DNA from: an uncultured Bacteroidales bacterium
GTDB lineage: Bacteria > Bacteroidota > Bacteroidia > Bacteroidales > UBA932
Length of the DNA stretch: 41,028 bases
Reading direction: 5' to 3'
Assembly (NCBI GenBank): GCA_946187975.1
Contig: CAMHTE010000007.1
Span: 1 to 41,028 of the forward strand
Of the stretch, positions 4,557 through 20,882 are shown piece by piece. The notes beneath the pieces are model-generated. The model saw only the letters and a program-made list of their open reading frames with translations. It did no database searches and was not told where the DNA came from. The first letter of the stretch is position 1. Every line of letters begins with the position of its first letter. The translations under genes and the position numbers were made by a program.

Positions 4557-5930
4557 ATGTCGGAAGCAGCGGTCACAAAAGCTCCGCTGGAGCTCGAAAC
4601 CAAGAAAATAAGCACCCTCCTGAAGGAATACGCGATCCCAGGCATCATCGCCATGACCGCAAGTTCACTGTACAACATGGTGGACAGCATCTACATCGGG
4701 CACATCCCCGACGTAGGCGCTCTCGCTATTTCGGGAGTAGCGGTCACCTTCCCTATCATGAACCTGGGGACGGCGATAGGCACGCTTGTAGGGGTCGGGG
4801 CATCCACCCTGGTTTCGATGCTTCTGGGTCAGAAGAACTATACCACCGCCAACAAGGTCCTGCCCAATGTGGTGACACTCAATGTGGTGCTCGGAGCCAT
4901 CTTCTCGGCCCTGGTGCTCCTGTTCCTGAAGCCCGTCCTCTTCTTTTTCGGGGCCGGCGAAGCCATCTACCCCTTCGCCAGGGACTACATGGTGATAATC
5001 CTGCTGGGATTCATAATATCGCACCTGTATTTCGGCCTCAACGGCATGATACGGGCGACCGGTAACCCAAAACTCGCCATGGGACTCACCCTGTTCACGG
5101 TGATTTCCAACGCCATACTCGATCCCATCTTCATATTCGTCCTCGGCATGGGCGTGCGCGGGGCCGCCATAGCGACCGTGCTCTGCCAGTTGATGTCGCT
5201 GTGCTACAGCCTCCACTATTTCAGTCGGAAAGACAGGGTTGTGCACTTCGGAAAGCGCATCTTCGGATTCAGCGCCAAGATAGCGCGCACCTCCATGGGA
5301 ATAGGCCTGGGGCCCTTCCTGATGAACAGCGCAGCATGCATAGTAACCATGTTCGTCAACCAGCAGCTGCGTTCCTACGGCGGAGACCTGGCCATCGGGG
5401 CCTACGGCATAATAGGACGCATCTCCTTCCTGTTCATCATGGTGGTGATGGGCATCAACCAGGGAATGCAGCCCATAGCAAGCTATAACTATGGTGCGGG
5501 CAACGGACTGAGAGTCAAACAGGTATACCGCCTCAGCGTGCTCTCGGCCAGTGCCGTCTGCATGTTCGGATTCATAATCTGCGAATTCTTCCCCCGGCCC
5601 GTGGTCGCCGCCTTCACCGACGACGCCACGCTGCGCGCCCTTGCTGTTCACGGCATGCGCATAATGAACTGCGCTTTCCCCATACTGGGCTTCCAGATTG
5701 TGAGCACGAACCTCTTCCAGTGCCTCGGTATGGTGCGGAAGAGCGTATTCCTCTCACTCAGCCGCCAGCTCATCTTCCTGCTTCCGGCACTGTACCTGCT
5801 CCCGCTTTCCTTCGGAATAGAAGGAGTATGGGCCAGCTATCCGGTTTCGGACATGGTTTCATTCATGTGTACCCTGTATCTGATCATACGCCTGATGCGT
5901 CAACTCGGTAAAACGGATGCGGCAGAATAA
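4557..5930 (+). CDS. MATE-family efflux transporter
   Basis: The 457-residue product has twelve predicted membrane segments, typical of MATE proteins. The N-terminal half contains IPGIIAMTASSLYNMVDSIYIG, the usual MatE opening, and the second half repeats it around GLGPFLMNSAACIV. FIMVVMGINQGMQPIASYNYGAG is the characteristic loop of the second MatE unit. Members are inner-membrane Na+ or H+ antiporters exporting cationic drugs or metabolites; the substrate cannot be told from sequence. It starts four bases after the FKBP gene and its end overlaps the serine hydrolase start by 14 bases, so all four plus-strand genes here form one transcription unit. Confidence 0.93.
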   Translation: MSEAAVTKAPLELETKKISTLLKEYAIPGIIAMTASSLYNMVDSIYIGHIPDVGALAISGVAVTFPIMNLGTAIGTLVGVGASTLVSMLLGQKNYTTANKVLPNVVTLNVVLGAIFSALVLLFLKPVLFFFGAGEAIYPFARDYMVIILLGFIISHLYFGLNGMIRATGNPKLAMGLTLFTVISNAILDPIFIFVLGMGVRGAAIATVLCQLMSLCYSLHYFSRKDRVVHFGKRIFGFSAKIARTSMGIGLGPFLMNSAACIVTMFVNQQLRSYGGDLAIGAYGIIGRISFLFIMVVMGINQGMQPIASYNYGAGNGLRVKQVYRLSVLSASAVCMFGFIICEFFPRPVVAAFTDDATLRALAVHGMRIMNCAFPILGFQIVSTNLFQCLGMVRKSVFLSLSRQLIFLLPALYLLPLSFGIEGVWASYPVSDMVSFMCTLYLIIRLMRQLGKTDAAE

Positions 5931-16585: not shown

Positions 16586-17599
16586 CTACCTGATGCAGCG
16601 GACCGAGGCGCAGAAGTCCTTGCGGCTCTGCTCACCCGTAAACACTGTGGGCTGGCCGGCTATCAGATAACGCGTGTAAGCCGTATTGGCATCCTTGGCG
16701 TCGGCAGTCCAGAACACTGCATAATCCAGCATGCCGTAGAAACGGTACTCCCCTTCCTCAACTATCGCATAACCACACGGTATCGCGGAGAATCCACTCA
16801 GGTTGCTGATCTTGACCTCCCTTGTATAGGGCCACATTTCGATTCCGTTGAAAGTGACATTCTCCATCATGGCACCGGCATCTCCCCCGGCAGCGGCTAT
16901 CATTGCATCGAATTCAGCACCGGAGGGAAGCCTCCATCCGGCCGGACATGCACTAAGGGCCTCGTCGTATGTATAATAATTGCCGAATATGGCTGCTACC
17001 GCAGGTTCATTCAGATAGGGCACTCCACCGTAAGCCATGTTCTGTAACAGAAGATCCACCCCGCCCACATTTTGTATGTAATAATACTCCCACAAATTAC
17101 GGCCGTCAACAAGATAGACTCCGGGCTGTATTTTGGTGTATCCGCGGAGAGAACCGGTATTGGGTTTGGGATCAACTATCGTAAACGCCCTGCTGACAAG
17201 TTTGCTGTAATAATCCGTGGCGGCTGCGGTCACCTTCATGGTAAAATCGCCAAGCGTATCGCGGTAGACCGTAAAATCGAAAGCCTTTCCAACGGTGTAG
17301 GGATCGGTTTCCTTGCGCAGGGTATCGGACTTATCCGTGAACGGATCGGTCCAAATCCATGTCAGGAGGGTGTCAGTTTTATCGGTGGCATCGGCACTGT
17401 TGGGCCTGTAGACACCCGTAGGTGAAATATGGATTACCTGTCCGTACTGAACGTAAGCCGGGAAATCGTACGCGAGCGTACCACCCAGATACATCTTGGT
17501 ATCGGTATCGTCGTCGTCGTCTTTTTTACAGGAAACGGCGGCCGCGAAAATGGCAAGGCCCGCCAGCAGGAAATATTTGGAGATTCTAGTTTTGATCAT
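16586..17599 (-). CDS. FISUMP-domain lipoprotein, probably surface exposed
   Basis: A 337-residue protein with lipoprotein signal peptide (lipobox AVSC, Cys24) followed by KKDDDDD, an acidic tract like the Bacteroidota lipoprotein surface-export signal. The middle (about 45-165) looks like bacterial Ig/PKD-type beta sandwiches. The C-terminal part (about 175-337) is a Fibrobacter succinogenes major paralogous domain: YYTYDEALSACPAGWRLPSGAEFDAMI and a closing ASVRCIR. The function of FISUMP domains is unknown, with cell-surface or adhesion roles suspected. It lies 31 bases downstream of the ABC exporter on the same strand and may be the last gene of that operon or its client. Confidence 0.8.
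   Translation of the reverse strand: MIKTRISKYFLLAGLAIFAAAVSCKKDDDDDTDTKMYLGGTLAYDFPAYVQYGQVIHISPTGVYRPNSADATDKTDTLLTWIWTDPFTDKSDTLRKETDPYTVGKAFDFTVYRDTLGDFTMKVTAAATDYYSKLVSRAFTIVDPKPNTGSLRGYTKIQPGVYLVDGRNLWEYYYIQNVGGVDLLLQNMAYGGVPYLNEPAVAAIFGNYYTYDEALSACPAGWRLPSGAEFDAMIAAAGGDAGAMMENVTFNGIEMWPYTREVKISNLSGFSAIPCGYAIVEEGEYRFYGMLDYAVFWTADAKDANTAYTRYLIAGQPTVFTGEQSRKDFCASVRCIR
17508..17521 (-). repeat. Trinucleotide repeat encoding the Asp tract of the FISUMP lipoprotein
   Basis: Four TCG units plus TC on the plus strand (GAC repeats on the coding strand) encode Asp27-Asp31, just after the lipidated Cys24. It is adjacent to a run of six T (coding A). Such tracts can change length by slippage. Confidence 0.6.
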
Positions 17600-19257: not shown

Positions 19258-19530
19258 TCAGGCTTCCACTATGCCGACCTCAATCCACTTGTCGGCTATG
19301 GCGGCGGCGTCCTTTGCCGCAACTTCTTCCTCAACCTCGTACTCTGCGAGCAGGAGGTCGGTGAGGTCCTTCACGCTGAACGATTCCTTGTCGGAAACCG
19401 CCTTCCAGAGGTAGGCCGCCGACTCGTTGAGCGATATCATCTTGTTGAAGTTCACCTGCGCAAGGCCTTCACCCACGATGATGAACTCTCCGCAAATGCT
19501 GCGAAGTTTGAATCCCTGTTTAACTTTCAT
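19258..19530 (-). CDS. PqqD-family peptide chaperone (RiPP recognition element type)
   Basis: A 90-residue protein starting MKVKQGFKLRSICGEFIIV, with NFNKMISLNESAAYLWKAV, the pattern of PqqD-like proteins: a winged-helix-like fold that binds the leader of a precursor peptide and presents it to modifying enzymes. The helical second half (DLTDLLLAEYEVEEEVAAKDAAAIADKW, about 54-81, quoted in part as the acidic EVEEEVAAKDAA) matches family habit. It overlaps the S26 peptidase gene by 11 bases and precedes the ABC exporter by one. No precursor peptide or radical SAM enzyme is visible beside it. Confidence 0.88.
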   Translation of the reverse strand: MKVKQGFKLRSICGEFIIVGEGLAQVNFNKMISLNESAAYLWKAVSDKESFSVKDLTDLLLAEYEVEEEVAAKDAAAIADKWIEVGIVEA

Positions 19531-19987
19531 ACCCTTTTCTGTAAAGATACCTTCTGGTAATACCTAAAATAATCCTGCGGATTAACCGCGGTGTCGCGTG
19601 CCACTGGCGCCACTTTTTGAGGGCTTCCGGGCTGAGGGGATCGGAAACCTTTCCTGAGGCGTGCTGGATTCCCACCACGGTACCCTGTATATCCGACAGC
19701 CGGCAGCGTTCCACTCCGGCGAGGTTGCCGTCGCCCTTGAGCCGTACGTCTTCCCCGTTAACACCGAGCACGCGGTGAAGGACGTAGCGCCCGTCGAATA
19801 TCTCGGCAAGGACTATGTCGCCCCTGTTTATGGAGCTGCGCTTCTCCAGCACTACGCTGTCGGATCCTCCCCTGATGAAGGGAATCATGCTGACGCCCTT
19901 GGTCATGATAATCACCTGCCTTCCCTCGGCAAGGAGTTGCGAGACCTCGCCGAGCATTATCTCATTCGGAAGAATAATCTTGTTCAT
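19520..19987 (-). CDS. S24/S26-family peptidase, soluble signal-peptidase-like protein
   Basis: A 155-residue protein with the box B serine in KGVSMIPF (Ser33), the RGDIVLAE element (about 55-62), YVLHRVLG with His71, and LKGDGN with Asp86. A His where LepB-type enzymes have Lys is the pattern of Sec11/SipW-type signal peptidases, which use Ser-His-Asp. I see no transmembrane anchor at the N-terminus (MNKIILPNEIMLGEV), unlike true signal peptidases, so it is probably cytoplasmic or peripheral. It overlaps the HprK-like gene by four bases and the pqqD-like gene by 11. A role in trimming a peptide handled by PqqD is inference. Confidence 0.82.
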   Translation of the reverse strand: MNKIILPNEIMLGEVSQLLAEGRQVIIMTKGVSMIPFIRGGSDSVVLEKRSSINRGDIVLAEIFDGRYVLHRVLGVNGEDVRLKGDGNLAGVERCRLSDIQGTVVGIQHASGKVSDPLSPEALKKWRQWHATPRLIRRIILGITRRYLYRKGYES

Positions 19988-20859
19988 TTTATCAATTCAG
20001 CCGAGCATACCCTGGCGGCATCGGCGTCTGGACGGCAGTCGAGAACGTAGCAGGGAGTACGGGAAATAATCTTTTCAAAAGTGGCGTTAAGACCGTCGGC
20101 CATAGCAGTGTCGGACTTGAACCCGGAACTGGACGAGTACAGCAGGGCGTACGATTCCAGCACCTTGAGCCTGGTGATGACGTTGTCCGGACTGCGGCGT
20201 ATCTGTACGAAAGCGCCGGCAGGATAATGTTCGTTGCGGTAGCAGGGGGTCTTGCCGCTCCAGGGGCTGCCGTAAACCTCCACCGTTCCGTCGTCAAGCA
20301 CGCGGACTATGGGATTGTCGTCGTTCAGGAGTCGGCTGCCGGGGATATTCTCGAGCCACATGCGGCTGTGGGTGCTCTTGCCAGTGCCGCTCTTCGCGAG
20401 CCACAGGAAAGCGCGTCCGCCGTTCACTATCACGGATGCATGCATCTCGAGGGTTCCAAGGCAGGCCGTACGGAAGGCGAACAGCAGCATGAGCGCGTTG
20501 TTAAGGCCGAAAAGGCCTTCCCCCGGCCTGAGTATCTGAAGGCGTCCGCGGGAGAAGGAGGAATCGGAATGCATGCGTGCGCAGACCGGCTTTCCCTTGC
20601 AGACGGCCATGTCGCAGACCCAGGTATCATCAGTCTTGGAGAGTTCGATTACGGGCTCGCCTTCCTCTTCGTATCCTCCATAAACCTTTTCCGCTTGGAT
20701 ATCCGGCAGGGACCCGACTATTTCCACGGTAAAAAGCGGCTCTCCGGCGTCATCGCCAACCTCGAACGGCCCGTACTGGGCCATCTTCCCCGCGAGGGGA
20801 TGGTCTTCGGGCATTATGACGCTGAAAAGGTGGCCTGCCACCCGGAATGTCCTGGTCAT
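19984..20859 (-). CDS. HprK-like P-loop kinase of a PqqD/RiPP-type locus
   Basis: I chose the ATG at 20859 (291 residues) over a TTG six codons upstream, since an AGAGA-type purine stretch precedes the ATG. The protein has an HPr kinase/PEPCK-like P-loop, AKSGTGKS (155-162), preceded by LEMHASVIVNGGRAFLWL, and the downstream LLNDDNPIVR acidic motif near 180. The N-terminal 110 residues are not assignable by eye. HprK-like proteins occur in lasso-peptide and other RiPP clusters, where some phosphorylate the peptide. It is the first gene of a five-gene minus unit (kinase, S26 peptidase, PqqD, ABC exporter, FISUMP lipoprotein). Database naming may be 'phosphoenolpyruvate carboxykinase-like'; gluconeogenesis is not its job. 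Confidence 0.8.
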   Translation of the reverse strand: MTRTFRVAGHLFSVIMPEDHPLAGKMAQYGPFEVGDDAGEPLFTVEIVGSLPDIQAEKVYGGYEEEGEPVIELSKTDDTWVCDMAVCKGKPVCARMHSDSSFSRGRLQILRPGEGLFGLNNALMLLFAFRTACLGTLEMHASVIVNGGRAFLWLAKSGTGKSTHSRMWLENIPGSRLLNDDNPIVRVLDDGTVEVYGSPWSGKTPCYRNEHYPAGAFVQIRRSPDNVITRLKVLESYALLYSSSSGFKSDTAMADGLNATFEKIISRTPCYVLDCRPDADAARVCSAELIK

Positions 20860-20882
20860 CGGTCTCTCTTTTTTCAATTATG

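Follow-up and report, generated by a model that had tools for sequence, protein, structure and literature searches.

The window analysed here is the whole of a 41,028-nucleotide stretch of DNA from an uncultured Bacteroidales bacterium (contig CAMHTE010000007.1). It contains a tight minus-strand operon whose second gene encodes a small protein resembling signal peptidases; coordinates of the genes and predicted features are collected in Table 1. A previous sequence-only reading had called the open reading frame of this protein without giving its strand. The frame is real and intact and is read from the minus strand. The kinase gene overlaps the start of the peptidase gene by 4 nt, the PqqD gene overlaps its stop by 11 nt, and the exporter gene follows the PqqD gene after 1 nt.

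Table 1. Genes and predicted features of the operon in the window.
Feature	Coordinates	Strand	Basis or remark
HPrK-like kinase (LppK-like), 297 aa, first gene of the operon	19984..20877	minus	motifs and fold
Signal-peptidase-like putative leader peptidase (LppS-like), 155 aa	19520..19987	minus	ORF intact, ATG at 19987
N-terminal amphipathic helix alpha1 of the peptidase, residues 8-20 (NEIMLGEVSQLLA)	19928..19966	minus	AF2 secondary structure
Ser33, predicted nucleophile	19889..19891	minus	invariant in 42/42; corresponds to LppS S29 by pattern
His71, predicted general base (HR replaces the KR of LepB)	19775..19777	minus	invariant in 42/42
Asp86, GDGN motif, first acid of box E	19730..19732	minus	invariant in 42/42
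Glu93, candidate catalytic acid, in the place of the second box-E acid	19709..19711	minus	invariant in 42/42
Cationic C-terminal helix of the peptidase, residues 134-150	19538..19588	minus	AF2 helix; family motif W..LP.RRYLLAIYRR
PqqD-family RRE protein (LppB/B1-like), 90 aa	19258..19530	minus	PF05402, E 7e-15
MsbA/CydC-type ABC exporter (LppD-like), 541 aa	17631..19256	minus	PF00664 and PF00005
FISUMP-domain lipoprotein, 337 aa, directly 3' of the module	16586..17599	minus	PF09603, E 5.5e-20; starts ...FAAAVSCKKDDDD

By sequence, the kinase is matched weakly by NCBIfam HprK_rel_A (3e-4, below cut-off). Its Walker A motif (S163-G-T-G-K-S-T169) and an N185-D-D motif are invariant across 31 homologues, and an AF2 model (pLDDT 94.9; one plasmid-record row was left out of the input) has the PEPCK/HPr-kinase fold, with matches to 1oen (E 3.8e-8), 1knx (1.8e-5), and 1kkm (4.5e-5). 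Due to these invariant SGTGKST and NDD motifs and the agreement of the model with PEPCK and HPr kinase, we regard the fold as settled. The PqqD-family protein is the sole PF05402 match in the window's genome, and the ABC exporter has no Pfam match to a C39 peptidase domain. A FISUMP lipoprotein also adjoins the module in L003, the closest relative.

Among 42 loci chosen by the peptidase alone, 30 have the gene order kinase-peptidase-PqqD-(NTP_transf_5)-ABC. The NTP_transf_5 gene is present in nine loci (eight of the 30 with the standard order and one that is reordered); the window operon has no NTP transferase, and the genome's only PF14907 match falls below its cut-off. The flanking genes differ between genera, which identifies the module as a conserved unit; for the same reason, phosphate-transporter, IMS-polymerase, and other flanking genes were rejected as functional partners. 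Incomplete modules missing PqqD and/or the kinase were found in L054, L055, L058, L068, L069, L073, and L107, and in four of these (L068, L069, L073, L107) only the peptidase and ABC exporter are left, both PqqD and the kinase being absent. In one relative, a genome in a single contig, the HPrK-like kinase and the peptidase are fused in frame as a 503-aa protein (L051:7937-9448, plus strand).

Other fusions involve the kinase without the peptidase. In L059 (6056-8242, plus strand) and L060 (8890-11067, minus strand) it stands behind a protein that looks IspG-like by eye, giving proteins of about 725 aa. A radical SAM domain is fused to an HPrK-like kinase domain in L113 (9611-11617, minus strand) and L116 (3205-5244, plus strand), in clusters that also contain peptidase and SPASM genes, and L113 encodes five small Cys-containing W..P ORFs. 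Radical SAM proteins were rejected as a usual partner of the module, since SPASM genes adjoin it only in the more distant members L113–L117 and L123 and the SPASM proteins of the window's genome are on contigs other than that of the module. Beside the radical SAM/SPASM gene of L123 lies a gene for a 141-aa protein (4910-5335, plus strand) with the leader spacing Y..P...AxC (SYSSPNLMAEQFAANKYVAVC), possibly a larger, perhaps rSAM-modified cargo of the L123 module.

The window operon contains the entire core set (SpI-like peptidase, discrete RRE, HPrK-like kinase, and MsbA-like exporter) of the linear polyphosphorylated peptide (LPP) RiPPs, which are encoded in Bacillota by lppA-K-B-S-D-N (Popov et al., May 2026; PMC13381572). 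In that work, which reconstituted the gene set, LppK is an HPrK-like kinase that places several phosphates onto core Ser3, and LppB is an RRE. LppS (WP_029196374.1), a peptidase of SipW type, removes the YxxP leader only together with LppB and loses this activity in S29A, H68A, and D93A variants. LppD is an MsbA-like exporter, LppN is an NTP transferase, and in an AlphaFold3 model LppS uses its N-terminal helix to dock onto the sheet formed by RRE and leader (PMC13381572). The authors call LPPs restricted to Bacillota, often within capsule loci, and give their role as unknown. The word Bacteroidota is absent from that paper, which within the literature searched was the sole match for LPP terms. 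A 2023 review of RiPP leader proteases does not mention a signal-peptidase-type enzyme (PMC10885120), and RREs are known to bind the motif YxxP (PMC12710340, PMC10368454).

We compared the peptidase itself with known families. All NCBIfam matches of the window protein are under the curated cut-offs, the best being the archaeal-type signal peptidase model TIGR02228 (28.2 bits, cut-off 51.85). Pfam S26 is below its cut-off (16.9 bits, cut-off 22.9), and Pfam S24 (PF00717) passes narrowly (23.5 bits, cut-off 23.3); on this score the protein belongs to S24 at the level of fold only, and the Lys base of LexA is absent from it. Among 41 members of the peptidase family, TIGR02228 matches 28, the bacterial model TIGR02227 matches 21, LexA matches 21, and the NiSOD maturation protease model TIGR02754 matches eight (counted at E<=0.01), the window peptidase not among them. 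Judged by these model matches, the family is nearest to the archaeal/ER-type signal peptidases. An AlphaFold model of the window protein (pLDDT 93.5) shows an S24/S26 fold whose helices at both termini are soluble: helix 8-20 is followed by the S24/S26 beta core and by helices 120-131 and 134-150. Foldseek searches with the model placed LexA and UmuD first (E 5.6e-5 and above; TM-scores ~0.45), with SpsB, LepB, and SipA further down at E 5e-3 to 8e-3 and TM-scores up to about 0.5. As modelled, the peptidase has a fold in common with LexA, UmuD, SpsB, LepB, and SipA without a close solved relative, and a single-sequence phmmer search against the PDB returned only a meaningless match to CYLD.

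These structural matches, together with the narrow pass of S24, are what one would cite for a self-cleaving regulator of the LexA/UmuD type that has lost its DNA-binding domain. We find this extremely improbable. The position of the LexA Lys is occupied by an invariant His, the protein is 155 aa long without a DNA-binding domain, the Foldseek TM-scores are low, and the operon context is one of peptide maturation.

Catalysis by Ser and His, in place of the Ser-Lys dyad of LepB, had been proposed from the sequence by itself, with Ser33 (GVSMIP), His71 (VLHRVLG), and Asp86 (LKGDGN) as the catalytic residues. Their positions are correct, and all three are invariant among 42 homologues. In that alignment S33, M34, P36, H71, R72, G85, D86, E93, and G112 are invariant; in the 41-row alignment the invariant residues are S33, M34, P36, H71, R72, G85, D86, E93, and R137. 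The alignment comparison suggested at the time, for a Lys acting as general base, found no such residue in any member: the His71 position is without Lys in 42/42 relatives.

The assignment of the acid is less straightforward. Ser33 and His71 are 38 residues apart (39 between S29 and H68 of LppS), and His71 is followed at 15 residues by Asp86 and at 22 by Glu93, where LppS has 25 between its His and Asp. Several distant relatives of the peptidase read GDNNPEAD or GDNSSYPDD, with an Asp at about the place of Glu93. By this spacing and pattern, Glu93 would occupy the place of LppS D93 and is more likely to be the catalytic acid than Asp86, whose role is more likely structural. The triad first put forward thus keeps its Ser and His, and invariant Glu93 is the likelier third member. 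In terms of LppS, the equivalents of its Ser and His are invariant here and the D93 place holds an invariant Glu, these residues being matched by spacing and pattern only. As a catalytic variant, Ser-His-Glu would be unusual. The likeness to the Sec11/SipW pattern noted earlier is borne out by the Ser-His chemistry and by TIGR02228 as best model; the second box-E acid differs, being a Glu here.

The N-terminal hydrophobic helix that the sequence-only reading had found missing is indeed missing. The highest 19-residue Kyte-Doolittle mean of the window peptidase is 1.08, compared to 2.54 for the ordinary LepB that is separately encoded in the same genome. Neither the Kyte-Doolittle scan nor the AlphaFold secondary structure contains a transmembrane helix, and no signal peptide was found on the protein; its active site would therefore face the cytoplasm. 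Where type-I signal peptidases carry their membrane helix, the protein has helix alpha1, in and around which E14, V15, L19, and G22 are conserved. By analogy with LppS, whose alpha1 contacts the RRE-leader complex, this helix is a predicted docking site for PqqD and leader. The other end of the protein is also well conserved: among 41 peptidases, W129 and P133 are each present in 40, R137 in 41, R138 in 39, and L141 in 40. We identified no counterpart among signal peptidases of the helix with the motif W..LP.RRYLLAIYRR. This conserved cationic helix may contact the membrane surface or the exporter, and the peptidase may bind the membrane peripherally through it.

One could still suppose that the enzyme is an auxiliary signal peptidase for Sec signal peptides, such as those of the adjacent lipoproteins or of other exported proteins, given its Ser-His signature, its best match to archaeal-type signal peptidase models, and the surface lipoproteins encoded nearby. 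The cytoplasm-facing active site argues against this, as does the genome's possession of its own LepB, and it is signal peptidase II that normally cleaves lipoproteins. Such a role would also leave the constant linkage with PqqD and the HPrK-like kinase unexplained, and we judge it very unlikely.

Candidate precursor peptides were first seen as small ORFs starting with [YW]xxP next to rSAM- or kinase-linked members of the peptidase family. An initial regular expression for such peptides gave many antisense chance matches, so we used a profile search in its place; the profile was built from nine of these peptides and favours seed-like ones. It matched in 69 of 200 genomes of the family, up to 23 times in a single genome; 87 peptides were collected, of which 81 are non-redundant. 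The peptides are ~40–60 aa long and have the motif Y..P.[IV]E[VI].E[VIL]..E.[GV][IF][AC].S, followed by an acidic tail (median 17 aa) rich in G/D/E and nearly without K, R, H, and C. With the Tyr numbered 0 and without gaps, the 81 peptides have E13 in 83%, [IF]16 in 90%, [AC]17 in 86%, and S19 in 87%; Y0 and P3 were themselves selection criteria. Nucleotide differences between related peptides are distributed over codon positions 1/2/3 as 1587/966/3002, as expected of coding DNA. No NCBIfam model covers the YxxP peptides, and we regard them as a family, new here, of likely substrates of the peptidase.

Peptides and peptidase occur in largely the same genomes. With genus g7 set aside, peptides are found in 64/82 genomes with the peptidase and 4/117 without it; with g7 included the counts are 64/100 and 4/99. 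Matches in g7 are partial and lie in other, mostly ~600-aa proteins, which is why the genus was treated separately. Four genomes are thus peptide-positive without the peptidase. Within the window's own genus, peptides are present in 9/14 genomes with the enzyme and 0/4 without (p = 0.04). All of these counts come from related genomes that are phylogenetically non-independent.

Peptide genes adjoin the module in L041, L052, L056, L070 (two), L072, L076, L107, and L120. No precursor gene adjoins the module in the window, and the five candidate peptides of its genome are on contigs C22 (one, at C22:15318), C23, C5, and C6 (two). Individually these candidates are weak (E 4e-4 to 0.07); one contains MTFLSAKKIYAAPDCEVSVLGTRSVICASNELQ... 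Near the modules of L068, L069, and L107 the peptides have a shifted motif, GFMxAS, and those near L068 and L107 have a common core like GHDQGLTTEEHGFA.

The peptide family also bears on whether the enzyme might mature a single folded protein, as SodX does in processing the NiSOD preprotein (PMC8346466), while PqqD and the kinase would belong to an unrelated pathway. The matches of TIGR02754 to some members of the family suggest this arrangement, whereas the coupling to PqqD, kinase, and exporter is kept in most loci, and the enzyme occurs together with a peptide family that is present in many copies. We therefore rate it as highly improbable.

The position of the peptide genes is as regular as their sequence. 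In 42 of 43 cases with sufficient downstream sequence, a same-strand ORF of 120 aa or more comes directly after the peptide gene. A strict N-terminal lipobox is present in 32/42 of these ORFs, compared to 10% of long ORFs generally, and the remaining ones are mostly lipoprotein-like by eye. In the window's genome, a predicted lipoprotein gene lies 3' of each of the five candidates. Some of the partner lipoproteins match BspA-like LRR, Lcl_C/FISUMP, GLUG, or beta-helix families; FISUMP genes stand 3' of peptides in L135 and L151, and the lipoprotein downstream of the module in the window is of this same class. We lean, with modest confidence, towards the view that a single chromosomal module of kinase, peptidase, PqqD, and exporter is responsible in trans for the maturation of some ~5 to 23+ small acidic phosphopeptides per genome, the gene for each standing before that of a distinct large surface lipoprotein, and that this constitutes an undescribed surface pairing system for display, adhesion, signalling, or competition.

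At the level of sequence, then, we have the enzyme, its operon, a peptide family that co-occurs with it, and the pairing of peptide and lipoprotein genes. We consider it probable, with good confidence, that an LPP-like RiPP module in Bacteroidales has this enzyme as its leader peptidase, with the full scheme of PqqD, kinase, and exporter and with dispersed precursors. A cytoplasmic leader peptidase coupled to PqqD, and not to Sec, was also what the sequence-only reading had arrived at, and operon synteny, the Bacillota LppS/LppB experiments, and the co-occurring YxxP peptides all support it; the operon's gene set is that of LPPs, in which LppS is RRE-dependent.

The steps of leader binding, cleavage, phosphorylation, and export are drawn by analogy from LppA/K/B/S/D. 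PqqD would bind the YxxP leader of small precursors encoded elsewhere in the genome and offer it to the peptidase at the latter's N-terminal helix. With the conserved [GV][IF][AC]xS sequence so presented, the enzyme would use its Ser-His-(Glu) site to cut there, in the cytoplasm. Three scissile bonds are candidates: after [IF]16, which is the LPP register (the LPP core starts AQS); after [AC]17, which best fits the -3,-1 small-residue rule; and after S19. The HPrK-like kinase would phosphorylate the core, most simply at the conserved Ser, which is 19 residues past the Tyr (18 to the phospho-Ser of LppA), and the MsbA-like transporter would export the acidic core. In this way the one module would serve many precursors in trans, the gene of each lying just 5' of the gene for its own surface lipoprotein.

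We also considered whether the module serves capsule or exopolysaccharide assembly, the peptidase and PqqD processing a peptide or protein attached to the polysaccharide. Polysaccharide-export genes (Poly_export, Wza-type) adjoin the module in the more distant members L109, L110, and L123, with glycosyltransferase, acyltransferase, and Wzc-like genes also present in L109, and the Bacillota LPP clusters are likewise found in capsule loci (PMC13381572). In most loci, however, including the window, no polysaccharide genes adjoin the module. The proposal is unlikely as it stands, and it bears less on the peptidase step than on what the module does downstream; it is compatible with the enzyme being a leader peptidase.

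As a leader peptidase of this kind, the enzyme would extend to Bacteroidales a RiPP logic reported only for Bacillota, in which a signal-peptidase-like protease receives a YxxP leader from an RRE. The hosts are gut-type Bacteroidales bacteria. The analysis also supplies something missing from the Bacillota study, candidate substrates that form a large and regular set and have partners in the genome. The pairing with surface lipoproteins gives a first hint, open to testing, of what such peptides do biologically. It would also explain a class of small 'hypothetical' ORFs 5' of surface lipoprotein genes.

Several known systems invite comparison. Like SodX (TIGR02754), the enzyme is signal-peptidase-like and would remove an N-terminal peptide from an internal protein, but the substrate differs and the similarity is weak and confined to 8/41 members. 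Type-I signal peptidases of the LepB kind (S26) have a Ser-Lys dyad and a membrane anchor, and the enzyme has neither. With SipW and Sec11 (S26B) it has in common the GxSMxP Ser, the HR box, the GD(x)N box, and Ser-His chemistry; it differs in the absence of a membrane helix, in E as the second box-E acid, and in its RiPP operon. The residues of Sec11 are compared here from general knowledge, with a residue-level literature source for S56 only.

Lasso peptide systems with a kinase and a nucleotidyltransferase (paeninodin, pseudomycoidin, bsf) have a PqqD (B1), an HPrK-like kinase, a nucleotidyltransferase, and an ABC exporter, and their YxxPxL leader resembles the YxxP peptides. Their leader peptidase, in contrast, is the cysteine protease B2 (PF13471, Transglut_core3). 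No PF13471 match was found in the window's genome (82% complete) and no lasso cyclase among the identified neighbours of the module, and we rejected the module as a lasso remnant on the absence of the B2 protease from the genome.

The closest likeness is to LPPs, which also combine an HPrK-like kinase, a discrete RRE, a SipW-like Ser-His-acid peptidase, and an MsbA-like exporter, with an NTP transferase that some loci here have as well. In both, the precursors carry an N-terminal YxxP and vary at the C-terminus, and a Ser about 18-19 residues past the Tyr is conserved. Both are sometimes found in capsule loci, and in neither does a lasso cyclase adjoin the module, here among the neighbours identified. 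We do not file the Bacteroidales system as an LPP member because its leader and cut-site motif is different (the YxxPxVLxHQxIxFETxxS of LPPs is not in these peptides) and because the NTP transferase is mostly absent. Beyond these two points, the host is Bacteroidales in place of Bacillota, the second acid is an invariant Glu where LppS has Asp, some modules have radical SAM/SPASM partners, and the precursor genes are numerous and scattered, with a surface-lipoprotein gene as partner to each one.
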